A DNA stretch of 42,934 nt from a virus: positions 1 through 42,934 of IMG/VR virus record IMGVR_UViG_3300039210_000167, one strand, 5' to 3'. The position numbers and the translations under genes are program-made. Under the pieces are notes generated by a model. It was not told the origin of the DNA, made no database searches, and saw nothing but the letters and a program-made list of their open reading frames with translations. Each line of letters starts with the position of its first letter. Positions within the stretch are counted from its first letter, which is position 1. This document shows positions 25,277 to 40,561 of the stretch, in pieces.

Positions 25277-25705
25277 TCAACCATGAGTTCGCTTGAACGC
25301 CTTGATCTGCCTACGGGCCTCACTCAGCGTGATCTTCCCAGAACACAGTGCGGTGTGCAGTTTATTCTCTAGAGGGTCAGACACGCTTGACTGTGCCCGA
25401 GGTTCAGGCCACAAGTTATGTGGGTCCTTTGGTGCCCCTCCAAGTTCAAGTGGTACAAAATGATCCTCTTCATAGTGGGACAGTACCTGGTCGCTGTACT
25501 TAAAGGCAATCACCTGTTTACTCTTCAACTTGTTCGTGTAGGCAACTGGTGGCCTTACTGTGCTTGTGTACCCGCTAACGCACACAGTTGTTTTTAGATT
25601 CTGCTGAGTAACAGCAGACGTCTGCACACCCCAGTGTGCGGGTGGCAGGATTACACTTGCAGATACAACTGCAGTGGCAAAGATAGTTCTAAACAAGAAC
25701 CTCAT
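25277..25705 (-). CDS. Secreted HNH-like protein, 142 aa
   Basis: The N-terminus MRFLFRTIFATAVVSASVIL followed by PP and an SA site looks like a signal peptide. The mature part has HYEEDHFVPLELGG then HNLWPEP and LENKLHTALCSG, a pattern found in small HNH-type proteins where DH and N form a metal site. The start is uncertain: ATG 25705 directly follows GAGGAGG, TTG 25696 has better spacing, and an in-frame TTG exists at 25717. It overlaps the polymerase 3' end. An exported nuclease is the best guess; substrate unknown. Confidence 0.68.
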   Translation of the reverse strand: MRFLFRTIFATAVVSASVILPPAHWGVQTSAVTQQNLKTTVCVSGYTSTVRPPVAYTNKLKSKQVIAFKYSDQVLSHYEEDHFVPLELGGAPKDPHNLWPEPRAQSSVSDPLENKLHTALCSGKITLSEARRQIKAFKRTHG

Positions 25706-27134
25706 CCTCCTCGTCAATGATTAGTGGGCGGTACTCATCTGCATTATGTTTCGCATCGCCCCAATTGGGCCCAACGTTCACGTCAGCCACAAAGGGAAGA
25801 TTGTACTCTAACCGCTGACCTTCCTTGAACGGTGACTTAGGTGACTGAGGAAGCGTGACCCAGCCTTGTGGCAACTCGTTCTCCATTGTGTCCTGCACAA
25901 TCGCAGCAGCCTCCTCAATGTAGTCATCTCTGACCTCAAGGTCAACTGAGTCATGCACAGTGAAGAGAAGGCGTGCCCGGTCGGGATCAAGGCGCTCCTG
26001 CAGCAAGACAATTGCGTGGATCATGATCTGCCCAGCGAACCCCTGGATCGGTGTGTTCACTGCCTGGCGCTCAATGTGCCCACGTCCTGACTCAAAGATG
26101 CAGTCGAACCTACGGCGGAACCCAAGCGGGTTCTCAACGTACTGCTTCTTCAGTGAGTCCTTCTTCACCAACTCCATCCAGTCGAACAGCACCTTGTATC
26201 CGACCTTAAACTTGTTGAAGTAATCTTCGATCTCCTTTACGCTCCACGAGCGGCCTGACTGCTCCTTCAGATTGTCCATCTCAGGACCGGTCGCGATTGA
26301 GCGTCCACCACGTCCGTAGATGACACCGAAGTTCATGCACTTGGCAAGATAGCGCTCGTACTTGGTAACCTCCTCCTTTGGCTTGTTCCATAGCATCAGC
26401 GCGACTTCTTGGTGAATGTCACCGCCCTCTCGATAAACATCCAATAGAACAGGATCCTGAGAAAAGAGAGCCGCGACCCGTAGTTCAAGTTGCGAGAAGT
26501 CTGCTTCCATGAACGTCCAGCCTTCCTCCGCAATGAACGCCCTGCGAATGTCGTAACCAACGTGCGAAGCATCAGGGATGTTCTGCAGATTCGGATTGCT
26601 ACAAGAAGTGCGACCTGTTGCAGTACCATGAAGATTGAGGTCACCACGAACACGCCCGTCACTGTCAGTACGCTGGAGGATACCGTTAACGTAGGTTCCT
26701 AGAATCTTTGAGCGTACTCTATACTGTAAGATCTTTTCGATGAGATGTGCAACGTGGGGCTTTTCTTTAGCAACGTCTTTTGCTAGATACTTTAAAACAT
26801 CTTTAGATGTGCTATCACCTGTCTGTTTGTAGGCATAGCGACCTGTGTTCTTAGGTGCAGCAAGGTCAAGTCCTGTTTCAGAGTAAAGTGCTTTCTTGAC
26901 CTGGTGAGATGAGTTCGGGTTGAACTCGCCGTCCTTGAACTGGTCGAGGCCCATGAGGTCGTCAACCATTGCGCCAAGCCGTTCAAGGTCAGCAGCGAGT
27001 TGAATGGTTAGCTCAGACCGTACTCCCTCAAGGTACGGGATGTCAATCTTCGCGCCGTTCATCTCAATGTGAGCGAACGCTATGCTCGCTGGCACGTAGT
27101 AATCCTCGATCAGCGACCAGAGGCGGTTAGGCAC
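25689..27134 (-). CDS. DNA polymerase family A, polymerase domain
   Basis: 481 aa from GTG 27134 with AGGAGG 6 bases upstream. Motif A EADFSQLELR (catalytic Asp212), motif B KCMNFGVIYG (about 265-274) and motif C TVHDSVD (Asp395) are intact; the residue after the motif C Asp is Ser where cellular Pol I has Glu. The protein begins at the end of the normal exonuclease-polymerase junction (NRLWSLIEDYYVPASIAFAHIEMNG). It lacks a nuclease domain and overlaps the upstream exonuclease gene by 8 bases, so the two probably act as one replicative enzyme. Confidence 0.93.
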   Translation of the reverse strand: MPNRLWSLIEDYYVPASIAFAHIEMNGAKIDIPYLEGVRSELTIQLAADLERLGAMVDDLMGLDQFKDGEFNPNSSHQVKKALYSETGLDLAAPKNTGRYAYKQTGDSTSKDVLKYLAKDVAKEKPHVAHLIEKILQYRVRSKILGTYVNGILQRTDSDGRVRGDLNLHGTATGRTSCSNPNLQNIPDASHVGYDIRRAFIAEEGWTFMEADFSQLELRVAALFSQDPVLLDVYREGGDIHQEVALMLWNKPKEEVTKYERYLAKCMNFGVIYGRGGRSIATGPEMDNLKEQSGRSWSVKEIEDYFNKFKVGYKVLFDWMELVKKDSLKKQYVENPLGFRRRFDCIFESGRGHIERQAVNTPIQGFAGQIMIHAIVLLQERLDPDRARLLFTVHDSVDLEVRDDYIEEAAAIVQDTMENELPQGWVTLPQSPKSPFKEGQRLEYNLPFVADVNVGPNWGDAKHNADEYRPLIIDEEDEVLV

Positions 27135-28347
27135 GCGATTCCTCCTCTTGCTTTTTGCGCAGATCCTCAAACAACCGCGCTGTGTAGTAAGCGTCAAGAC
27201 CTTGGTAGACGTACAGCTCCTCTAGCATCTCCTTCTTCCTCTCCTTGGTCGCAGCGGGCAGGAGTGACTTAGGGAGGGGGATATACGGGTACACTTCCTT
27301 CGGATCAATGTCGCGTCCTACCTTGAGTCCGCGCCAACGAGGTTCTTCTCCGTACGTTTCTTCATACCCCTTACGCCACAGCGTGCGTGACTTCTCTGGG
27401 TACTTCTCACAGTGTTCCTTGAGGTACGCCTTCACGTCAGCGGGGTCGGGGTCCTCACGGAAGAACTCCTCCAACCACTCGCCCATAGGCAACCCGTAGT
27501 CAGGTGCGTCATAGTAGAGACGTGCGAGGAGTTTCAGCGAGTGTGACCTGTAGCGATTGAACGGGCGCTCATCTAGTGAGTAGTTAAGCAGCATCGTGTC
27601 CATTGGCTTCTTGAAGGTGAACTTGCCGTATAGGCGCATGAGGTGCTGCACATCGAACTTCAGATTGTGGTAGACTGAGTACCCCTTGTAGGTCTTGAAG
27701 AAGGTGAGAAGCTCCTCTCCGATGTACTTTTGAGGTACGACAATAGCATACCCCTCATTGACTCCAGTAAGTGCGCCCAAGCCGACAGAGAGGGGGTAGG
27801 CATGAATGCCGAATCCAGACGTCTCAATGTCCATGCCGAGAAACGAAGCATCATGCAAATCCCTAAGATCGCGTAGGTCTGCCTTCTTTTCAACAAGGTT
27901 GATCTCCACATCTGGTTGTGGGATAGGAGCGCTGTGCGTCAGCAACTTGTCTATGTCAGACACAACGTCTCTGAAGAAGTCAGCGTCCTTGACAACAGTA
28001 CTAGGTGAGTATGTGGCAACTGTGTACCACTCCATTAGTGGTTCCTGGATCACCATGCCTCGCCCCCTTGCCTTCGTGACAGATACCGTCTTGTCGAGGC
28101 GGTGAGTGGTCGCGGTAGCAATAGGTCCACAGCATAGAATCTTCTCGTGCTTGTATGCAGCTTCAAGGATCCTATCACTCTCCTGCAACCAGCGCTCAGG
28201 CTTGATCTTCTTCAATTCCTTGTCTGCCATCTTCGGCACGACGTTGACGATCTCGTACTCTGTCTTGTAAGCACGGAAGATCGAGTCGATGATCTGCAGG
28301 TGCATCCCTGAAAGGATCGGCGTGTCATGGACGACGAGTACGCTCAC
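27127..28347 (-). CDS. 3'-5' exonuclease subunit with UDG-like N-terminus
   Basis: 406 aa from GTG 28347, in a GTGA overlap with the previous small gene. Residues about 165-395 are a DEDD exonuclease: Exo I GMDIETSG (Asp173, Glu175), Exo II HNLKFD (Asp232), Exo III YQGLD (Tyr381, Asp385). Residues 1-136 (VLVVHDTPILSG, ILCCGPIATAT, YTVATYSPSTVVKDADFF) resemble the degenerate uracil-glycosylase-like domain at the start of SPO1-type phage polymerases. Together with the following gene it forms a split family A polymerase; it would proofread. Confidence 0.85.
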   Translation of the reverse strand: MSVLVVHDTPILSGMHLQIIDSIFRAYKTEYEIVNVVPKMADKELKKIKPERWLQESDRILEAAYKHEKILCCGPIATATTHRLDKTVSVTKARGRGMVIQEPLMEWYTVATYSPSTVVKDADFFRDVVSDIDKLLTHSAPIPQPDVEINLVEKKADLRDLRDLHDASFLGMDIETSGFGIHAYPLSVGLGALTGVNEGYAIVVPQKYIGEELLTFFKTYKGYSVYHNLKFDVQHLMRLYGKFTFKKPMDTMLLNYSLDERPFNRYRSHSLKLLARLYYDAPDYGLPMGEWLEEFFREDPDPADVKAYLKEHCEKYPEKSRTLWRKGYEETYGEEPRWRGLKVGRDIDPKEVYPYIPLPKSLLPAATKERKKEMLEELYVYQGLDAYYTARLFEDLRKKQEEESRA

Positions 28348-28478
28348 TTGAGTAGCCCCTTCGCCCGGCAGATCGTCTGCTTGCCGTTCTTCAAGATCAC
28401 GTACTGCTCTGACCATGCCGGGAACTCACACACCGTCCAGGTCTTGCCACCGATCTTGAACTTATCTCCGATCTTCAC
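28344..28478 (-). CDS. Small basic hypothetical protein, 44 aa
   Basis: GTG start overlapping the DpdA stop, and stop overlapping the exonuclease GTG. It reads as a compact beta protein: MKIGDKFKIGGKTWTVCEFP then YVILKNGKQTICRAKGLLK, like a small SH3-type barrel. The two 4-base overlaps argue it is real and co-translated. Function unknown; it links the modification and polymerase genes. Confidence 0.65.
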   Translation of the reverse strand: MKIGDKFKIGGKTWTVCEFPAWSEQYVILKNGKQTICRAKGLLK

Positions 28479-29305
28479 AGTTTACCCGCTGCTGCCTGAG
28501 CGAACACCCTACAGTTGTGCCCAGCGATCTTCAACTGTTTCTTGTCTAGCACTGCCTTGTGGAAGTCAGTGCGGTGGCGCTTGGGGTAAGGAGGGGGTTC
28601 TTCACTCGGCCACAACTTCATCCCGTGCATTGCATACTGAAACGGCTTGCACGAGTCAGTTGACCTGATCCAGGAATGCTTCTTGGCAATTTCTCCGTAC
28701 ACCCACAGGTTACGTGACCACCCGAGAAGGTGGCAATGCATCCGGATCTCCTTGTCCGCCCACAGGTTCTCTCTGAGATCCTTGACGATGTCTAGGATCT
28801 CAAGTAGACCTCCATCGAGGTCCTGGTAGTCCTTAGAGACACCAATCACAATATCCCGGCGTGAATTCTTACGCTGGGCAATGTAGAGGTGCAGGTCGAT
28901 GAGTTCCTGGATGCATAGCCAGTACTCTTCCTTGTCCTTTCCCTGAGGCACGTACATGAGGCATGGATTGAGTTCGTGCATATCCTCTGCACTGTCACCT
29001 TCGTACCATTCCTCAAGTGCCTGCATTGCTCTCTCAACTGTTGCAGGTCCATCGTCAAGTACGTCCGGAACGACGATCTCCTGTGCGCGTACCCGCATGG
29101 CCTGCCTGAGCAACTTTGCAGCGTTGATCCCTTCCTTGTACTCGTGAGCAGAGTTATCAAGGATCAGGTAGGCACCATGCAGACGCTGCTTCTGATAGTG
29201 CTCACGATACACCTTGTTGCTCATCAGATGAGCAAGCAGAAGATGCAGATCACCTTGTCCGAACTCCTCAAGGTGTGCGTTGGGTACGATCAGTGCAGCC
29301 TTCAT
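28475..29305 (-). CDS. dpdA: DpdA, phage DNA 7-deazaguanine transglycosylase
   Basis: 276 aa from ATG 29305 (ATGA overlap with the upstream gene). It is related to tRNA-guanine transglycosylases: LILDNSAHEYKEG (about 48-60), VVPDVLDDG with Asp81 in the position of the first catalytic Asp, IGVSKDY, MHCHLLGWSRN (about 189-199) and STDSCKPFQYA with Asp217 as probable nucleophile. In other phages DpdA swaps guanine in DNA for a 7-deazaguanine base. The complete synthesis pathway is encoded directly upstream in the same operon. Confidence 0.87.
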   Translation of the reverse strand: MKAALIVPNAHLEEFGQGDLHLLLAHLMSNKVYREHYQKQRLHGAYLILDNSAHEYKEGINAAKLLRQAMRVRAQEIVVPDVLDDGPATVERAMQALEEWYEGDSAEDMHELNPCLMYVPQGKDKEEYWLCIQELIDLHLYIAQRKNSRRDIVIGVSKDYQDLDGGLLEILDIVKDLRENLWADKEIRMHCHLLGWSRNLWVYGEIAKKHSWIRSTDSCKPFQYAMHGMKLWPSEEPPPYPKRHRTDFHKAVLDKKQLKIAGHNCRVFAQAAAGKL

Positions 29306-29658
29306 GCTGGTCCTGATCCTGTCTTCGGAAGTCCACTCCACTGGGGCATGTCTGAGTACTCACCATACAACCCAGTAACATCCTGGTGCACTAGGAACAT
29401 CAGACAGCAAGCGGCGTGAGCAAGGTGATGGTACCCCCACTCTGGATCGTTGACCTCGCCTCGCATATACGCGAAGACGTGGCGGAGGGTCGCGCCGACG
29501 AGGCGTGTTGACCTAATCCCTTTCGCCCAGTTGTTGTCGTCGTACTTAATCGCGCCAGATGTGAGGACCTTGCTGACTTCCTCAAGGAACCAGGGAGACA
29601 GAAGTTCGACACGGATTTTATCGCCATCGAACTTAGTTCCCTCAGGAAGCAGGGGCAT
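29302..29658 (-). CDS. dATP/dGTP diphosphohydrolase-like protein
   Basis: 118 aa. LTSGAIKYDDNNWAKGI, TLRHVFAYMRGEVNDPEWG and HHLAHAACCLMFL match the phage family annotated as dATP/dGTP diphosphohydrolase N-terminal domain (DUF5664), related to MazG-like helices with metal-binding acidic residues and a His pair. It could trim purine dNTP pools while the phage modifies its DNA. It overlaps the gene upstream by 17 bases and dpdA by 4. Confidence 0.75.
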   Translation of the reverse strand: MPLLPEGTKFDGDKIRVELLSPWFLEEVSKVLTSGAIKYDDNNWAKGIRSTRLVGATLRHVFAYMRGEVNDPEWGYHHLAHAACCLMFLVHQDVTGLYGEYSDMPQWSGLPKTGSGPA

Positions 29659-29998
29659 CGGGCACCTCGTCCACGTGGTCGCGCATAGCGATCATGTCTT
29701 CGATCATCTTCTCTAGCATCTCATGGCGAACGGCGTAGTGGTACACTGTCCGGTCTGCAGGGTCAATGATCGAGAACTTGTAGACAGCGATGTCTCCTTC
29801 AGGTGTCCCCTGAATGACCATGCGGGTGAACTCGTGGTAGCATTGCCGCAGTGTCTTCTCAGTCGCAGTGAAGGGGATGTTCGTCCGAGGGTCGGGCAGC
29901 ACAGGTTGTTCCTCACCCTTAGCGAGGATCACTGCCTGCCGTTCAAGTTCCTGGCGCTCCTTCAACTTCTTCTGGAACTCTGTGTCACGACCTGCCAT
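29642..29998 (-). CDS. Uncharacterised protein within the modification operon, 118 aa
   Basis: ATG 29998 is chosen; longer frames run into queC coding sequence. It has a charged N-terminal helix (residues 1-30, EFQKKLKERQELERQ), a middle segment with LPDPRTNIPFTATEKTLRQ, and a C-terminal helix with Met/Glu/Asp (HEMLEKMIEDMIAMRD). No catalytic motif or family is recognised. Tight overlap with queC upstream and the nucleotide hydrolase downstream suggests a role in modified-base synthesis or insertion. Confidence 0.65.
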   Translation of the reverse strand: MAGRDTEFQKKLKERQELERQAVILAKGEEQPVLPDPRTNIPFTATEKTLRQCYHEFTRMVIQGTPEGDIAVYKFSIIDPADRTVYHYAVRHEMLEKMIEDMIAMRDHVDEVPDAPAS

Positions 29999-30761
29999 GA
30001 GACATTTCCCTCCAATTCTTGTACGGTAGCGGGTCAACGAGGTCTGCCTCACTGAACGCATCCAAACGTGCCTGGCAGGTCGAGCAAGTGCCACACGCGG
30101 GACGTTCACCACGGTAACAGGAGTGGGTCAGTTCGTAAGGAGCACCTAGGTCTTTGCCCCTCCTGATGATCTCTGCTTTCGTTCTGTGCTGGTACAGTGC
30201 ATGAAGGCGTACCCGACCGTAGGTGCCCACGTAGATTGCTGCTGCCATCGCTCCAAGGAACTCAGGGGTGCAGTCGGCGTAGGCAAACCCAGCACCATCC
30301 TCAGCGTGCATGCCAGCGTAGATGAGTGCGTCTTCCCAGATATTCTCACCAGGATATGGATCAGGACCAGTTGACCTGCCCTGAATGTTCACGTCCTCAT
30401 CTCTAAGAACAGAATCAGCATACGCTGCTGCCTGACTAAGAAGGTTGCCATTCCTGAATGGAACGTAGGTAGGAGACATGACGCCAGAAGCGAGGTCGTC
30501 GTAGCGCATATCTGCAACTTCCTCGTCTGAGGTCAACGACCCACCAACGAACATCTTTGCCGGCAAGTTGTAGATTGCGTGGTTGACGTTGTAGTAGAAG
30601 CGGGCTATTTCTCTAGCGCACTCGATCTCGACGCTGTGCTTCTGCCCGTAGTTAAACGAGACAGCATGGACGTTCTCAGGTCCGTGACTCTTAATCGCCT
30701 CAGCAAGCGCAGTCGTGCTGTCGAGGCCACCGCTGAAGACGACTACTGCAAGTGTGCTCAT
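29985..30761 (-). CDS. queC: QueC, 7-cyano-7-deazaguanine synthase
   Basis: 258 aa, ATGA overlap with folE. A PP-loop ATPase motif FSGGLDST (about 9-16), SFNYGQKHSVE, PFRNGNLL and a C-terminal Cys cluster CYRGERPACGTCSTC for zinc identify QueC. It converts 7-carboxy-7-deazaguanine to preQ0 with ATP and ammonia. It also has YADCTPEFL, typical of the family. It supplies preQ0 for QueF and DpdA. Confidence 0.95.
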   Translation of the reverse strand: MSTLAVVVFSGGLDSTTALAEAIKSHGPENVHAVSFNYGQKHSVEIECAREIARFYYNVNHAIYNLPAKMFVGGSLTSDEEVADMRYDDLASGVMSPTYVPFRNGNLLSQAAAYADSVLRDEDVNIQGRSTGPDPYPGENIWEDALIYAGMHAEDGAGFAYADCTPEFLGAMAAAIYVGTYGRVRLHALYQHRTKAEIIRRGKDLGAPYELTHSCYRGERPACGTCSTCQARLDAFSEADLVDPLPYKNWREMSHGRS

Positions 30762-31636
30762 CTGTGCACCCTTCCTAGCAGGGATAGAAACTCATTTCTA
30801 GTGTTCAGGTCTGTATAGAAGTCACCCTTGAAAACAGTTGTTGTTGTTGAAGACCCGTGTGCCCTGACTCCTCTGATGTTCATACAGGAGTGAATACCCT
30901 CAACAAGAACAGCAACATTTTCTGTCTGCAGCGTGTCACAGAGAGTATTTGCTATCTGCACTGTGAGGTCCTCCTGAAGAATTGGAAATCTAGCACATGA
31001 GATAGCAACTCTTGCTAATTTAGAAAGTCCTATAGCATCGTGCTTTGGAATGTACCCAAGGTCAATCGTGTACTCTACAGGTAGAAGGTGGTGGGGGCAG
31101 ATTCCATTCGCCTTAACTGCACTTTGAGTTACCATGCCCTCATACTCTGAGGGGAAGGTTGAGTTCTTCCAGGTCTCAAGGTCTTCCTCTAGATCGAGAA
31201 AAAAGTGATCCATGAGGTACTGGGTAAATCTGCGGGGCGTCTCAACAAAGTTCTCATCTTCAAGATCGACTCCTAGAGTTTCTAGAAGGCGCCCAACGGC
31301 TTTAGCGACGAAAGGAAATCTGTCCTCTCTTCTAGCATTGTCACCATGTAGTTTTCCATGGCAAGAAGCACAAAGAAGACTGACGTCTTCAAGAAGTGGG
31401 ACTGTTCTGTTGTAGTTTAGGTGGTGCATCCCAAGCCTTTTGCCATATTTAGCTAGTGCGTCTTCATTGGAGACACAACACTCCTCACACTTGTTCTCTG
31501 CTCTTTCCTGCAAGTCATAAAGAAGTATAGCGTGAGGAGACTTTAGCCGATCCCTTTTAGGGGCTGCATCCCACCTTGCCCGTGCTGCTTTCACACGAAC
31601 ATCATGGTTCTTATCTTGTATTGGTTCACTGCCCAT
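30758..31636 (-). CDS. folE: GTP cyclohydrolase I (FolE) with N-terminal HNH-like domain
   Basis: 292 aa, TAATG overlap with queE. Residues about 108-292 are FolE: FVAKAVGRLLETLG, ETPRR, zinc ligands in GICPHHLLP and HSCMNIRGV, GLSKLARV. It opens the GTP ring to dihydroneopterin triphosphate. Residues about 35-105 have CEECC, GMHHLNYN and LLCASCHGKLHG, a zinc-bound HNH nuclease-like domain not normally part of FolE. The gene is AT-richer than its neighbours (42-52% GC in sampled lines against about 57% in queE), suggesting transfer as a unit. Confidence 0.9.
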   Translation of the reverse strand: MGSEPIQDKNHDVRVKAARARWDAAPKRDRLKSPHAILLYDLQERAENKCEECCVSNEDALAKYGKRLGMHHLNYNRTVPLLEDVSLLCASCHGKLHGDNARREDRFPFVAKAVGRLLETLGVDLEDENFVETPRRFTQYLMDHFFLDLEEDLETWKNSTFPSEYEGMVTQSAVKANGICPHHLLPVEYTIDLGYIPKHDAIGLSKLARVAISCARFPILQEDLTVQIANTLCDTLQTENVAVLVEGIHSCMNIRGVRAHGSSTTTTVFKGDFYTDLNTRNEFLSLLGRVHR

Positions 31637-32433
31637 TAGCGTCCCCTCTCATTTCCCCAAATTAGAGTATGCTGCTGTGGAAAGATGCGACAGTCAGCGA
31701 ACTCCTGCCTCAGCAACACTGCCTCTGTCCAGTCAGCGAAGTTGTCGAGAACAACGTCCCGAGTCAGCACCACAGTCGAGTCATCTACGACTGGGTTTGG
31801 ATTGCCGACAGTGGGGAGAGAGGGATCGTCGTTGCCGATACTCACAAAGAACTCAAGGTAAGGCCATGTCTGGTGAACCCGTGCTGCGAACTCAAGGTCT
31901 GCATACGTGAACACAGGCACCTTAAGGTACGGCGGGTGCACTACAGAACTTACTGGGTTGTCTTTGTGCAGTTCAGTTAGGATCTTGTCGAAGTTGTCGA
32001 AGTCCCAGTCCATCTTTGAGGAAGGCGGCTTCGGTGAGAAGCAGAGGTCGTCTACCTTGCCAAACCACTGACGATAGACACTACCCTGAGTCTCAAGCAT
32101 GACCTTCTTCTTCTGGGAGTGCAACAGATCAATGAGACCGTCGAGGTCCCGCAGTGCAGGGTTACCTCCCGACAGCACAATCCACACAGGAGTGGCACTA
32201 GCGTCACCGTCACGATCAAGGCGGCGTAGCGCACCTACGATCTCCCAGTCAGTCATCTTTGGCAACTTCGCCACGAGGTCAGGCAGGACAGCGTGAGGTG
32301 TGTCACACCAGTCACAGCGGAAGTCACACCCACCGAACCTGACGAAGTGGCAGGGCATGCCGACGTTGCGACCTTCCCCTTGAATCGTCGGCCCAAAGAT
32401 CTCAGCAACGCGGTGCTTCTTGTCGTGAGTCAT
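31636..32433 (-). CDS. queE: QueE, 7-carboxy-7-deazaguanine synthase
   Basis: 265 aa from ATG 32433 (ATGA overlap with queD). The radical-SAM motif is CDFRCDWCD (CX3CX2C), after FGPTIQGEG and RFGG; VWIVLSGGNPAL and MLETQGSVYRQW are further family signatures. It rearranges 6-carboxytetrahydropterin into 7-carboxy-7-deazaguanine. It stands between QueD and FolE in the operon. Confidence 0.95.
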   Translation of the reverse strand: MTHDKKHRVAEIFGPTIQGEGRNVGMPCHFVRFGGCDFRCDWCDTPHAVLPDLVAKLPKMTDWEIVGALRRLDRDGDASATPVWIVLSGGNPALRDLDGLIDLLHSQKKKVMLETQGSVYRQWFGKVDDLCFSPKPPSSKMDWDFDNFDKILTELHKDNPVSSVVHPPYLKVPVFTYADLEFAARVHQTWPYLEFFVSIGNDDPSLPTVGNPNPVVDDSTVVLTRDVVLDNFADWTEAVLLRQEFADCRIFPQQHTLIWGNERGR

Positions 32434-32891
32434 CTTCGCACGTACCTTGCTGAGGAGGTTGGCGACTCCCACACGTCGAGCATGACGGCGTACAGGTCGT
32501 CCTCGTTCTCATACCCAATGTCCAATCCGTGGAACCTAAGCAACTCATCGAACAGGCAGTCAGCCCAGAAGATTGCGATTGCCTCTGCAGTGGGAATGAA
32601 CGGTACCTGGATGAAGCCAAGTTTGTATAGGTCACCTTGACCATCTGCAAACCCGAACACGTCCTCTGCTATCGGGTCCTGGTCCCAAAGGATTGTCCGG
32701 TGGTCCCACTCGTTCAGTGCATTCTTCACTACACCAAAGTCCATTACAAATCCATCCCTAAGGACAGCGGACTTCAGCATAACGTCGAAGCGGTACGTGT
32801 GCCCATGCAGACGAGCACACTTCCCAGCACCACCTTCGTGGTTCGGGATCCGGTGACCCATTGCGATAGTGTGGGAGAGGGAGATCTCCAT
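32430..32891 (-). CDS. queD: QueD, 6-carboxytetrahydropterin synthase
   Basis: 153 aa, TAATG overlap with queF. HTIAMGHRIPNHEGG, CARLHGHTYRF (catalytic Cys and zinc His), GFVMDFGVVK, WDHRTIL and FIPTAEAIA are all present as in QueD/PTPS proteins. It turns dihydroneopterin triphosphate into 6-carboxytetrahydropterin for QueE. Confidence 0.93.
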   Translation of the reverse strand: MEISLSHTIAMGHRIPNHEGGAGKCARLHGHTYRFDVMLKSAVLRDGFVMDFGVVKNALNEWDHRTILWDQDPIAEDVFGFADGQGDLYKLGFIQVPFIPTAEAIAIFWADCLFDELLRFHGLDIGYENEDDLYAVMLDVWESPTSSARYVRR

Positions 32892-33277
32892 TACGCTGTC
32901 GCCTCGATCTCAATACCGCCACGCCGCTTCTGCAGCAACGTGACCGCCACCTGTGCCTCGTGAAAGATCACCCCAGGGTCGTGCATTGAGATGGCCTCAA
33001 AGATTGCTGTCTTGATCTGAACTGCAAGTGCCTCACAGAAGGCACCCTCATTGCGGAACTTGCTGAGGTAGATCTTGAGCGACTTTGATTCGATGCAGGC
33101 GGCGGGTTCTTCGATAGCAATCTCGACCTCGTACAGATCAGGTTGACCTGTCATAGGACACACTGCGGTGAACTCGTCTGAGTGCAGAATCAGACTACGC
33201 AGGCCTGGATTGTCAAATGTCTCCAGGCCCACGTAGGTGTCGCTCCCGGCGTGTCCGAGTGCGCTGAATTGACTCAT
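32891..33277 (-). CDS. queF: QueF, NADPH-dependent preQ0 reductase
   Basis: 128 aa, short single-domain type. AVCPMTGQPDLYEVEI has the catalytic Cys and, seven residues later, the Asp; ESKSLKIYLSKFRNEG is the QueF substrate motif; ISMHDPGVIFHEA follows. It reduces the nitrile of preQ0 to the amine of preQ1. No glutamine amidotransferase domain is attached, so archaeosine-type (Gat-QueF) chemistry is not expected. Its presence predicts preQ1 as the base placed in DNA. Confidence 0.92.
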   Translation of the reverse strand: MSQFSALGHAGSDTYVGLETFDNPGLRSLILHSDEFTAVCPMTGQPDLYEVEIAIEEPAACIESKSLKIYLSKFRNEGAFCEALAVQIKTAIFEAISMHDPGVIFHEAQVAVTLLQKRRGGIEIEATA

Positions 33278-33278
33278 G

Positions 33279-33797
33279 CTACTTGAACGCCTTCTTGCCG
33301 CCGGCCTTCGCAGGTCCTGACTTCTTCGGTCCGCCACCTGACTTCTTCGGCGAGGAGCCACCACTGCCGTTCAGCGACCAGATGCCCTCGACCTGGTTCT
33401 GCTCGCGCCCCTCGTACTTGCGCTTCGACAGCTGAACCTTGACGGGCAGGCCGACCATCTCAGGATTGGTGACGATGAGATCGCCGTTGTCGCCTTCCTC
33501 TGCGTCGATGTCCAGGTTCTCGACGTACAGGTCCAGATTCTCAAGGTACTGCTTGGTGATGCCGAGCGCCTTCGGTGATGTTGACATAACCATCCAGACC
33601 TTACGCCCCTCCACGTCACCAGCGTCTTCCTTCGTCTCCAGTGCTTCCTGGATGTCGATCTCGACGTTGATATAGGGGAACTTGTCCTCGACGTCCACGT
33701 TCCGCAGCGTCGTCTTCGTAATGACTCCACTGTACTCACCAGTGGGCAGGACCTCAAAGTCCTGAACGTCGCTGAAGTCAACTGTAATCCGTGGCAC
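33279..33797 (-). CDS. Probable single-stranded DNA-binding protein (DUF669-like)
   Basis: 172 aa from GTG 33797 with GAGGAGG 6 bases upstream. PRITVDFSDVQDFEVLPTGEYSG, then a beta-rich domain and an acidic stretch (about 100-112), resemble phage DUF669-type proteins. The C-terminus is a flexible Gly/Ser/Lys/Pro tail. It lies directly downstream of the Sak4-like recombinase gene, the usual partner in phage annealing and recombination. Confidence 0.72.
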   Translation of the reverse strand: MPRITVDFSDVQDFEVLPTGEYSGVITKTTLRNVDVEDKFPYINVEIDIQEALETKEDAGDVEGRKVWMVMSTSPKALGITKQYLENLDLYVENLDIDAEEGDNGDLIVTNPEMVGLPVKVQLSKRKYEGREQNQVEGIWSLNGSGGSSPKKSGGGPKKSGPAKAGGKKAFK

Positions 33798-33816
33798 TTG
33801 TAACCTCCTCATTCAT

Positions 33817-34575
33817 CTAGAACTTGTAACCTAGTTGATCGAGCAACAAGGTCATGGTCGGATTGTCGATCTCTTCAGGGGCCTCGATCCCCCAAGCAGT
33901 GCGTACCTTCAGGTCCAACTTCGGGTAGTTCCGTAGGAGAAGGGACCTGTATTCCTTTCCTTCATCCTGCATCTGTGCCATGTACCCCACGGTCTCAAGT
34001 AGGCCTGGGATCTCAAAAGCGCCCTTGCCATACAAGTTAGGCACTACGATCATACCACGCTGCGCGTGTGTGATCTCCTTACCGTGTGCAGTGCAGAAGA
34101 AGTGCAGCGGGAGGTCGCGGAACTCACGTACCAGACGCCGTAGTTGAATCAGTGCCTTGCCGTAATCTTGCTGCTCAACACTGTCCACACTCTTACGCCG
34201 ATCTGCTTCTCCCTCCACAATCGTCTCGATTGCGTAGTTGTGGACCTCTGACGCTGAGTCGAGGCCACAACCTTTCCACCCCTCATCGTTCGTCAGCATC
34301 CTCTGGAACCCCTCATTGAAGTCGTCCCAGTCCCGAACACGTGCAGCGACGAATCGTGCGCCACTTGGTATCGGGTCAGTGACATTCTCCAACTTAGCGA
34401 ACCCAGGCATGCCGTCGAGCGTCTTGGTGCCACCTTCAAAGTCGAACAGGAAGAACGGAGTAAGACGCTCGTCCTCTGCTGCTGTGCCGAGGAACCTTGT
34501 CTTGCCGGCGTTGTACCCGCCGTAGATCAGCGCCTTACACCGGTCCCCTGTATCGACTGACTTCTTAGGAGGCAC
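33817..34575 (-). CDS. Sak4-like RecA-fold recombinase ATPase
   Basis: 252 aa, GTG start with weak ribosome site and 11-base overlap with the gene before it. Walker A is IYGGYNAGKTRFL (about 18-30); Walker B-like FFLFDFEGG and CGLDSASE follow; FFCTAHGKEI fits the sensor region. Proteins of this size and pattern are phage Sak4-type or AAA nucleotide-binding proteins that promote strand annealing with SSB. It probably acts with the DUF669-like protein and Cas4-like nuclease. Confidence 0.8.
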   Translation of the reverse strand: MPPKKSVDTGDRCKALIYGGYNAGKTRFLGTAAEDERLTPFFLFDFEGGTKTLDGMPGFAKLENVTDPIPSGARFVAARVRDWDDFNEGFQRMLTNDEGWKGCGLDSASEVHNYAIETIVEGEADRRKSVDSVEQQDYGKALIQLRRLVREFRDLPLHFFCTAHGKEITHAQRGMIVVPNLYGKGAFEIPGLLETVGYMAQMQDEGKEYRSLLLRNYPKLDLKVRTAWGIEAPEEIDNPTMTLLLDQLGYKF

Positions 34576-37554: not shown

Positions 37555-37902
37555 TCATAGTTTTTCTGGCCTAACATAGGTTGTTAGGAGGTACTGTAGT
37601 TTCTCCTTCTTAGGAGTCACAAGCTGAAGTTCAGCAAGGATCTTCAAACCCCTCCTATTGCCTATACACAGGTCATAGCAGACCTTGTGGTGCTCCTCTT
37701 CAAGATAGGGTCTGTTATTACCACAGTAGTAAGTAATCCCAAGTTCATCTAGAATTTCCTTGCATCTGTCAAGTAGTGGAACACAAGTATTAGTTATAAC
37801 TAGACGACGGTTCCACCTACCTGCATGGTCCTGTGAGCAGACTACAGACCCTTCCCCGTCAATGATCCCAGCCAGGTATGCCTTTTTCTCTTGAATGTTC
37901 AT
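37555..37902 (-). CDS. Free-standing LAGLIDADG homing endonuclease-like protein, 115 aa
   Basis: ATG 37902; no clear ribosome site. YLAGIIDGEGSV (about residues 9-20) is a single LAGLIDADG motif with its catalytic Asp, so it would act as a dimer, though it is shorter than usual enzymes. The rest (VITNTCVPLLDRCKEIL, KILAELQLVTPKKEKLQ) matches the fold. DNA is AT-rich (33-45% GC in sampled lines), unlike its neighbours, a sign of recent transfer. Confidence 0.82.
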   Translation of the reverse strand: MNIQEKKAYLAGIIDGEGSVVCSQDHAGRWNRRLVITNTCVPLLDRCKEILDELGITYYCGNNRPYLEEEHHKVCYDLCIGNRRGLKILAELQLVTPKKEKLQYLLTTYVRPEKL

Positions 37903-37934
37903 AACTTGAATTGTACCCGTGGGAGGAGTGTAAT

Positions 37935-38153
37935 CTAAAGAACAGACTTGGTGTGCAGTGACCACCACGCCTGACGCCAAGTGTTCCGGGCGTTGGCTTG
38001 GGCCTCACCCCTGTTCTCACCGGTCGCGAAGACCCTCAGCGAGTCACGAACGTCAGGCCGACGTCCGTAGGCCTCACACATGAAGATTTCCTCTCCCTCT
38101 TCCGTCCAGTACTGCTTAGCGTGCGTCACTGCTGTAGGTTCTGGCGCTTGCAT
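37935..38153 (-). CDS. Small hypothetical protein, 72 aa
   Basis: TAATG overlap with the upstream gene. Central part WTEEGEEIFMCEAYGRRPDVRD, C-terminal Trp-rich WRQAWWSLHTK. Coupled to the preceding gene. No family recognised. Confidence 0.6.
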   Translation of the reverse strand: MQAPEPTAVTHAKQYWTEEGEEIFMCEAYGRRPDVRDSLRVFATGENRGEAQANARNTWRQAWWSLHTKSVL

Positions 38154-38362: not shown

Positions 38363-40172
38363 TCTGGCTCTCCTCCCACTCAGTGATGTAGTTAGCACCA
38401 ATTGAGCGGAGGATCTTCATGAGGTCTGAACCTGTCACTTTCGCCATGTCTGGCAACTTGCCGGCGAGGTTCATCTCAACGAAGTCATCGACAGTTCCAC
38501 GACATCTGAGGACACGGCAGCGGACGTTATGGTTAAATCCAGCAAGTTTTCCTCGCGCTCCAGCATAACGATGAAGACTCTGGAACCATGCGTCTGAGTC
38601 CCACGTCTTATCAAGGTAGATGACATCCCGGACATTAGCGAGTGTATGACCATACTTGCCTACGCCAATTGAGAGAATGAGAACGTGAACATCACCGCGC
38701 TTGAAGTCCTCGATAATTGTATCTGCATTCTTGTTTCCTCCCTGCACGAGTTCAACACGCTGTCCCTTGAGGTCGCCCTTTGAGAACATCGTCTTGATCC
38801 TCTGGTACAGCGCATCACCACCAGGTCGATGGTGCGACCAGATGAGTAGGGGGTAGATGACGTCTCCTGTCTCAAGTGCAGAACAGATGAAGTCAGCCTT
38901 GGTCGACTCATCAGGCCAGTGCTGTCCTGTCGTCTCAAGGTTCTTGAGATTGGACGTGACCTGCTGGAGTCGGATGAGTTGTGAGATTACTGCAGTGACG
39001 TCCACTCGGGAGTCAGCATTCTCTGCCAACTCGTGCATCCAGATGTCCATGAGATCGTCATGGGCCTTTTTCTGTCGCTTCGTCAGAGGAAGTTCGATGT
39101 CTTGGAAGACGACCTTCGGCAGGTCCTCAAAGACTTCCTCTTGGTTGCGGACGAACATCAGTTCAGGGAACTGCTCATGCAACTCCATTCCGTGCCTCGA
39201 CCCAACGATCTCACCCGAGGACCACGGTGTCGTCTCTACAACACAGAACTCGTTTGCGAACCTCCAGAACGATGAGAAGTAATCAGGTTCAGCGATCTGC
39301 AACTGCTGCCAGATGTCGCTGTTGTCATGCGTCGTTGGTGCACCTGACAGGAGGAAGGTCTGGGACGCCTTTGAGCCCAACGACTTGACGACCTGAGATC
39401 GCTTCGACTTGCGGTTCTTGTATAGGACACTCTCATCCAAGATCAGAACGTCCCACTCCTGGTCGAAGGTTGGGTCGAGGAGACCGGTCACACGAAGCGG
39501 TGCACCTTCTGCTGCACGCTTCCTCTCAAACAGTACCTCTGGATTTGTGACGCCCCATACTGCCTCGCCTGCCATACTGCGGTTCCCAGTACCTATGAGT
39601 TCGGCGTGGTTCCACTCTGACCACTTCTCGATCTCACGCTTCCAGTTGTGGACGAGTGCCTTCGGGCAGACGACGAGGAAGTGGGGCGACGCAATGTTCT
39701 TGCGTCGTGCGTACAGATCAGCAGCGACGATGCCTGTGGGCGTCTTGCCAAGGCCTGGCGACAGGACCATCATCTTGCCGTTGTACCCTCGCGTGACCAT
39801 GGCGTGCACTGCCTGGACCTGGTACGGGTACAGGTTCTTGAACGTCGGGTGGGCGTGCCCCCACTCGTCCATGATCTGAGCAGCGTGCTCTACAGACACG
39901 TCCCATGAGTCGATGAGGTTGCGCACGTCTCGACTCAGTTTAGCCTTCGGATCATAGTCGATGATCTTGCGGGCCATTCGCTCAATGCGTGGCAGGCGCC
40001 AGCACTTGTGCTTGCCGTCCCACCTACCGCTCCATTCTTTTACCTCAGGTGATGGGTAAAAGGTTGGTGAGTAAAAAATCCAGCGGCCTTCAACCCATGC
40101 GTCATACTCTCTCTTCTTTTCTTTAGGTACCTTTCCTGAGTCCTTGAATTGCTTCCACGCTGAAGTACTCAT
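38355..40172 (-). CDS. SNF2-type DNA helicase/translocase
   Basis: 605 aa from ATG 40172 (ATGA overlap with the HNH gene). The N-terminal 110 residues include a SHARPIN-like WDGKHKCWRLP segment. Helicase motifs: YPYQVQAVHAM, LSPGLGKTPTG (Walker A), LVVCPKALVHNW, LILDESVLYKN (motif II DES), LLSGAPTTHD, and C-terminal LILSIGVGKYGHTL, VIYLDKTWD and SLHRYAGARG. Similar proteins serve in phage replication or recombination remodelling. Confidence 0.88.
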   Translation of the reverse strand: MSTSAWKQFKDSGKVPKEKKREYDAWVEGRWIFYSPTFYPSPEVKEWSGRWDGKHKCWRLPRIERMARKIIDYDPKAKLSRDVRNLIDSWDVSVEHAAQIMDEWGHAHPTFKNLYPYQVQAVHAMVTRGYNGKMMVLSPGLGKTPTGIVAADLYARRKNIASPHFLVVCPKALVHNWKREIEKWSEWNHAELIGTGNRSMAGEAVWGVTNPEVLFERKRAAEGAPLRVTGLLDPTFDQEWDVLILDESVLYKNRKSKRSQVVKSLGSKASQTFLLSGAPTTHDNSDIWQQLQIAEPDYFSSFWRFANEFCVVETTPWSSGEIVGSRHGMELHEQFPELMFVRNQEEVFEDLPKVVFQDIELPLTKRQKKAHDDLMDIWMHELAENADSRVDVTAVISQLIRLQQVTSNLKNLETTGQHWPDESTKADFICSALETGDVIYPLLIWSHHRPGGDALYQRIKTMFSKGDLKGQRVELVQGGNKNADTIIEDFKRGDVHVLILSIGVGKYGHTLANVRDVIYLDKTWDSDAWFQSLHRYAGARGKLAGFNHNVRCRVLRCRGTVDDFVEMNLAGKLPDMAKVTGSDLMKILRSIGANYITEWEESQNV

Positions 40173-40561
40173 AGAATCAACCTGTTTTCTCTCCTCTGCC
40201 AGGTACGGGCAAGATGACAATTCCCACAGACAAGATCACACTTATCCATTTCTTTGAGTATCCTCTCCCAGGTCCAACTATTCCAGGTGTTGGTTTTGTC
40301 AGCCCTGCCTCTACAAGGTACATGGTCAAATTGCATCTTGTAGTGAGAAAAGTAACCTCCGCAGTCCTCACAGGGGAATAGTTCTTTACTGTGACAAATG
40401 ATCCTAAGTTTTTCTCTAGCTTTTGCCTGCACTTCTGCAGACTCACACGCCTTGCACATTGCTGTTCTACCTGTAGAGGAATATCTGTTAACATAAAACT
40501 CCTCTAGTGGTTTCTCAACAATACACCTAGTGCACTCTTTAGTTCTAACTGCCACTGTCAC
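40169..40561 (-). CDS. HNH homing endonuclease, 130 aa
   Basis: GTG 40561 at a TAGTG overlap, with GGAGG 8 bases upstream. Two N-terminal CxxC pairs (CTRCI, CKACE) precede a phage HNH domain: CEDCGGYF, MQFDHVPCRG and DLVCGNCHLART. AT-rich (about 42% GC in a sampled line), unlike neighbours, and wedged between the helicase and a zinc-ribbon gene, as for mobile free-standing endonucleases. Confidence 0.87.
   Translation of the reverse strand: MTVAVRTKECTRCIVEKPLEEFYVNRYSSTGRTAMCKACESAEVQAKAREKLRIICHSKELFPCEDCGGYFSHYKMQFDHVPCRGRADKTNTWNSWTWERILKEMDKCDLVCGNCHLARTWQRRENRLIL

Follow-up and report, generated by a model that had tools for sequence, protein, structure and literature searches.

Our material is a virus record of 42,934 nucleotides (IMGVR_UViG_3300039210_000167), taken whole and called the window below. 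Its minus strand carries an operon in which a queF-like gene (32891-33364; TIGR03139, 1.9e-18, below the cut-off of that model), a queD gene of the PTPS family (32430-32891; PF01242, 1.4e-21) and a queE gene (31636-32472; TIGR03365, 5e-67) are followed by a 292-aa reading frame at 30758-31636. Downstream of this frame lie queC (29985-30761; PF06508, 3e-49), a gene for a protein with a dATP/dGTP diphosphohydrolase N-terminal domain (29302-29658; PF18909, 6e-27) and a candidate gene for a DpdA-like protein, a putative DNA base-exchange enzyme (28475-29341; phrog_20335, 2e-6). The 292-aa product pairs a phage-type HNH domain with a complete GTP cyclohydrolase I (FolE) in one polypeptide. HNH nucleases and phage FolE proteins are each well known separately, and a search of open-licence PubMed Central papers returned no description of an HNH-FolE fusion.

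When the product of 28475-29341 was compared with TGT and DpdA profiles, the sole match was to phrog_20335, a PHROG without assigned function. In phages of Bacillus, Weizmannia and Chryseobacterium, its tblastn matches are no more than a few kb from folE, and phrog_20335 proteins are also encoded near FolE in two viral contigs described below (L261 and L337); phrog_20335 appears to be a divergent DpdA-like family near folE in several phages. From motifs and synteny, we infer that the window protein is a candidate DpdA. Given an operon with queF-like, queD, queE, folE, queC and DpdA-like genes, the most likely role of FolE is to supply 7-deazaguanine modification of the phage DNA. FolE is part of the 7-deazaguanine DNA modification clusters of phages 9g, Dp-1 and Rosebush (PMC6884629), and in both cases FolE, QueD, QueE, QueC, QueF-type and DpdA-like proteins are encoded in one phage region and catalytic residues are retained. 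The phage FolE genes examined here for comparison are without HNH, which is not mentioned in the text of PMC6884629, whereas the FolE of the window carries one.

The fusion gene is a single uninterrupted frame that begins with the ATG of a TAATG overlap with the end of queE and finishes in an ATGA overlap with queC. Its Shine-Dalgarno sequence, GAGAGGGG (31643-31650, minus strand), has a duplex energy of -8.2 and so passes the 5th percentile of the background, which is -7.0; candidates for a FolE start, whether in the ORF frame or another, score -3.3 or weaker. A preliminary description of this DNA had raised the possibility of an internal FolE start near residue 105; no in-frame ATG, GTG or TTG occurs from codon 71 to codon 141 of the ORF, and separate translation of the FolE part is therefore very unlikely. 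A group I intron or an intein was rejected: 28000-34000 gave no Rfam match at E <= 1, and no intein domain was found in the fusion ORF.

The FolE domain occupies residues ~108-290 (30767-31315, minus strand). PF01227 matches residues 111-287 with an E-value of 1.3e-46 and 158.7 bits against a cut-off of 27; with the stricter equivalog model TIGR00063 the score is 150.8, below the cut-off of 181.6. The zinc ligands C180, H183 and C251 are retained, and all residues considered for the zinc and GTP sites (C180, H182, H183, K206, R209, E222, H249 and C251) are invariant across an alignment of 20 rows. A Foldseek search with the FolE part retrieved GTPCHI (E 1e-18). Judged from its sequence, the C-terminal part is a complete FolE, and we predict that it is enzymatically active.

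The HNH domain, at residues ~33-106 (31319-31540, minus strand), is supported by PHROG matches, alignments, an AlphaFold model and PDB matches. It contains CEEC, HH (71-72), CASCH and H97, which together form the motif CxxC..HH..CxxCHxxxH. Four PHROG HNH families match the N-terminal part at E 0.0018-0.015, residues 1-105 match several PHROG HNH endonuclease families at E 0.0015-0.01, and tblastn with the same residues against phages and plasmids gave weak matches (E 0.08-10), mostly to annotated HNH endonucleases. The closest of the phage HNHs, in Rhodobacteraceae phage LS06-2018-MD05 (L100), has HHLNYN in common with the window and shows 42% identity in the core. In an alignment with stand-alone HNHs, C50, H72, C89, C92 and H93 are invariant; a MAFFT alignment in which HNH rows were mixed with FolE rows put the HH motifs in the wrong place and was discarded. 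Pfam gave no notable match to residues 1-105, and its HNH model PF01844 did not match the window protein at E <= 1. No HNH relative came up when the PDB was searched with the sequence of the HNH part, and no separate DNA-binding domain was recognised by Pfam, PHROGs or NCBIfam. The middle catalytic Asn of HNH is absent and Asp84 stands in its place, which leaves room for an inactive domain. Asp occupies this position in both of the fusions described here and also in stand-alone HNHs (L099, L100, L224).

In a full-length structural model, for which the alignment held FolE rows only, the HNH part had pLDDT < 50, and a separate model of residues 1-110 was used instead. This AlphaFold model, built on a small viral alignment, places strands at 69-72 and 85-88 and a helix at 90-106, which is the beta-beta-alpha arrangement; block pLDDT is 62-90 for residues 41 to 100. 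The top Foldseek rows obtained with it are nearly all HNH nucleases (EcoKMcrA, Cap5, GVE2 HNH, Cas9 HNH), none with an E-value as low as 0.001, and VIA-align gave moderate Z-scores of up to 7.6 (DotN, Cas5-HNH, Cap5 and others). The fold-match scores are moderate, yet the list of PDB matches is consistent for an HNH fold. Domain profiles, alignment and predicted fold thus agree with the initial reading of an HNH-like zinc domain ahead of an intact FolE in one frame. Elsewhere in the window, a stand-alone HNH endonuclease gene (40169-40561; phrog_2255, E 2e-23) is AT-rich and overlaps a helicase gene; comparison showed that it is not closely related to the HNH of the fusion. A small ORF at 25277-25717 has no family match and contains a motif, DHFVPLELGGAPKDPHNLWPEP, resembling HNH of another type.

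How often FolE carries such a domain was assessed in two surveys. The first listed 94 FolE loci, 14 of them from phages or plasmids and 80 from IMG/VR; 0 of the 94 had an HNH extension on FolE or an HNH ORF in the fetched flanks. The second, an IMG/VR scan with a narrower alignment, listed 80 further loci and found L337 and L261, which the first scan had missed. Together they comprise at least 174 FolE loci with 137 distinct FolE C-termini (175 rows and 138 C-termini with the window). HNH-FolE fusions number two among the matches listed (174 loci and the window), both on metagenome contigs; this frequency is rough, since the IMG/VR counts are of matches listed. No stand-alone HNH ORF lies beside folE among the 174 loci listed. 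Scans for close relatives in IMG/VR found no match, either to the whole protein or to its HNH part alone, and the whole protein had none in GTDB contigs. Among the matches listed for 174 actinobacterial genomes with FolE, all begin at residue 79 or later, and in the fetched loci of sampled bacterial genomes no FolE was found beside HNH-like matches. Several candidates were rejected: the FolE alignments of Vibrio phage QD01 and related sequences, reaching upstream to residues 43-69, reflect ordinary FolE N-termini; the long N-terminal annotation of Dp-1 FolE is without HNH; and the matches of a CxxCH...ETPxR DNA-pattern scan are chance matches only. Another recurrent phage fusion was observed at no fewer than seven loci (L079, L289, L293, L301, L327, L336 and L340), where FolE is preceded in frame by a phosphoribosyltransferase-like domain (GVPRGG ... 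VIDDLIDSG). Phage FolE therefore tolerates N-terminal partners.

The nearest relative among the matches listed is L261 (52% identity), with a similar gene order of queD, queE, folE, a diphosphohydrolase-like ORF and a DpdA-like gene. The L261 folE has no HNH and follows immediately on queE. The N-terminus in the window is not a standard FolE extension. Its initial Met lies close to the end of the window HNH (placed by eye, as the automatic alignment was gapped there). Because the beginning of the L261 FolE coincides almost exactly with the end of the HNH, the HNH is placed ahead of folE, at the queE-folE junction, and not inside it; the earlier proposal of a homing endonuclease captured at a target within folE is not supported.

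The search for the same fusion in other phage FolE proteins yielded one more case among the 174 loci listed, L337 (IMGVR_UViG_3300025669_001165). Its HNH part alone exceeds the PF01844 cut-off (22.7 versus 21.4 bits), the start of the fusion has a Shine-Dalgarno energy of -11.9, and its FolE is 37% identical to that of the window. The gene is followed by a short ORF and then by a DpdA-like gene, and the record also encodes QueC, QueD and a QueE-like protein. Domain order, boundary and pathway context are alike in the two fusions, but they lie at different genomic positions and their FolE domains belong to different clades: the window groups with L261 and L262 (99/99), and L337 is placed elsewhere. 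A FolE clade of both fusions was rejected (p-AU 0.0001) in an AU test run after the second fusion was found, with the deep position of L337 not settled in the FolE tree. The two HNH domains each score higher against stand-alone HNHs than against one another. Because the FolE domains share no common clade and the HNHs are nearer to stand-alone HNHs, the fusion probably arose twice. Separately, the queE gene of L262 (1353-2495) contains an apparent in-frame mini-intein near the radical-SAM cysteine motif (Intein_splicing PF14890, E 1.2e-5, below its cut-off; PT-HINT).

The fusion gene was originally described as AT-rich throughout, and its base composition agrees: its GC is 0.46 versus 0.53-0.57 in the operon neighbours, and GC3 is 0.38 in the HNH part and 0.44 in the FolE part versus 0.59-0.67 in the remaining operon genes. 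These two parts, the stand-alone HNH (0.43) and a LAGLIDADG gene (0.44) have the four lowest GC3 values in the window. The latter encodes a stand-alone LAGLIDADG-type endonuclease at 37555-37980 and is itself AT-rich. The low GC3 of both halves of the fusion suggests that they may have been acquired together and more recently than their neighbours.

We favor, with a probability of roughly 0.55, a bifunctional protein in which FolE and a phage-type HNH nuclease are joined in a fusion under selection; its nuclease activity, target, display on a decamer and selection are what we infer. The FolE part would catalyse the initial step on the way to preQ0/preQ1 for 7-deazaguanine modification of the phage DNA, in which GTP becomes dihydroneopterin triphosphate. 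At the queE-folE junction, folE would have gained a phage-type HNH nuclease domain at its start, and this domain probably still nicks or cuts DNA. FolE is a decamer, so that an assembly would display about ten HNH domains. At least two seemingly independent fusions in phages with this pathway point to a selected link between the parts, and repeated in-frame fusion in the absence of an adjoining stand-alone HNH favors a link that is retained, which suggests retention by selection. The two-function protein considered in the preliminary description is now better supported; its domain content stands, and DNA cleavage would be a predicted property.

It is possible, although we consider it unlikely, that a free-standing homing HNH gene between queE and folE simply lost its stop codon and that the fused domain serves, or served, only its own spread. 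The low GC3 that both halves share with the LAGLIDADG and HNH genes of the window would fit recent selfish acquisition, as would the HNH-less relative L261, but the FolE half is equally AT-rich. Phage homing endonucleases often lie beside conserved genes, and free-standing phage HNH homing endonucleases such as T4 mob proteins carry the HNH domain at their N-terminus and are inserted between genes (PMC2988022), as the HNH of the window would have been. Unlike the window protein, however, they are separate ORFs with their own C-terminal DNA-binding region, a place taken here by FolE, and the window protein has no recognised DNA-binding domain. The ShiLan element, in which a mycobacteriophage DNA methylase contains an inserted HNH endonuclease (PMC11855218), likewise ties an HNH physically to a phage DNA-modification enzyme without stops in the host frame; its HNH is internal and in another reading frame, whereas the window HNH is N-terminal and in the FolE frame. 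These precedents, homing endonucleases beside conserved phage genes and an HNH within a methylase, make a selfish origin plausible, and homing by the fused HNH is possible. Against it stand the two apparently independent in-frame fusions with one boundary, the different genomic position of the L337 fusion, and the lack of any stand-alone HNH adjoining folE among the 174 loci listed.

We think it improbable that the N-terminus is a non-catalytic zinc domain aiding FolE folding, assembly, or binding to DNA or a partner. HNH folds can be structural, and DotN, which is regarded as non-catalytic, is among the best fold matches; the Asp at the middle position would also fit. However, both metal-site histidine motifs and the four zinc cysteines are retained in both fusions, and the stand-alone HNHs that share this Asp carry endonuclease annotations. 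An assembly or sequencing artefact, an indel near codons 100-108 joining two adjacent genes, could be suspected from a single metagenome contig with +1-frame ATG/GTG codons near codons 97-100, but it is highly improbable given that those codons lack a Shine-Dalgarno sequence comparable to that of the real start, that FolE homology sets in, in frame, straight after the HNH, and that L337 carries a second fusion. In the window, DNA polymerase A (25689-28416) is also divided between two ORFs, one for the exonuclease and one for the polymerase. The latter begins at a GTG (27134) with a very strong Shine-Dalgarno sequence of its own (-12.0), overlapping the exonuclease end, and this split was therefore ruled out as a sign of sequencing indels.

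The bifunctional reading might be extended, speculatively and with rather low confidence, to a self/non-self device, in which a nuclease against unmodified host or rival DNA would be attached to the enzyme at the head of the pathway to the protective base, in a decameric form that would have evolved at least twice. If true, modification and restriction would be built into one decameric protein. More generally, two apparently independent fusions in phages with the deazaguanine pathway suggest a coupling between nuclease and DNA modification.
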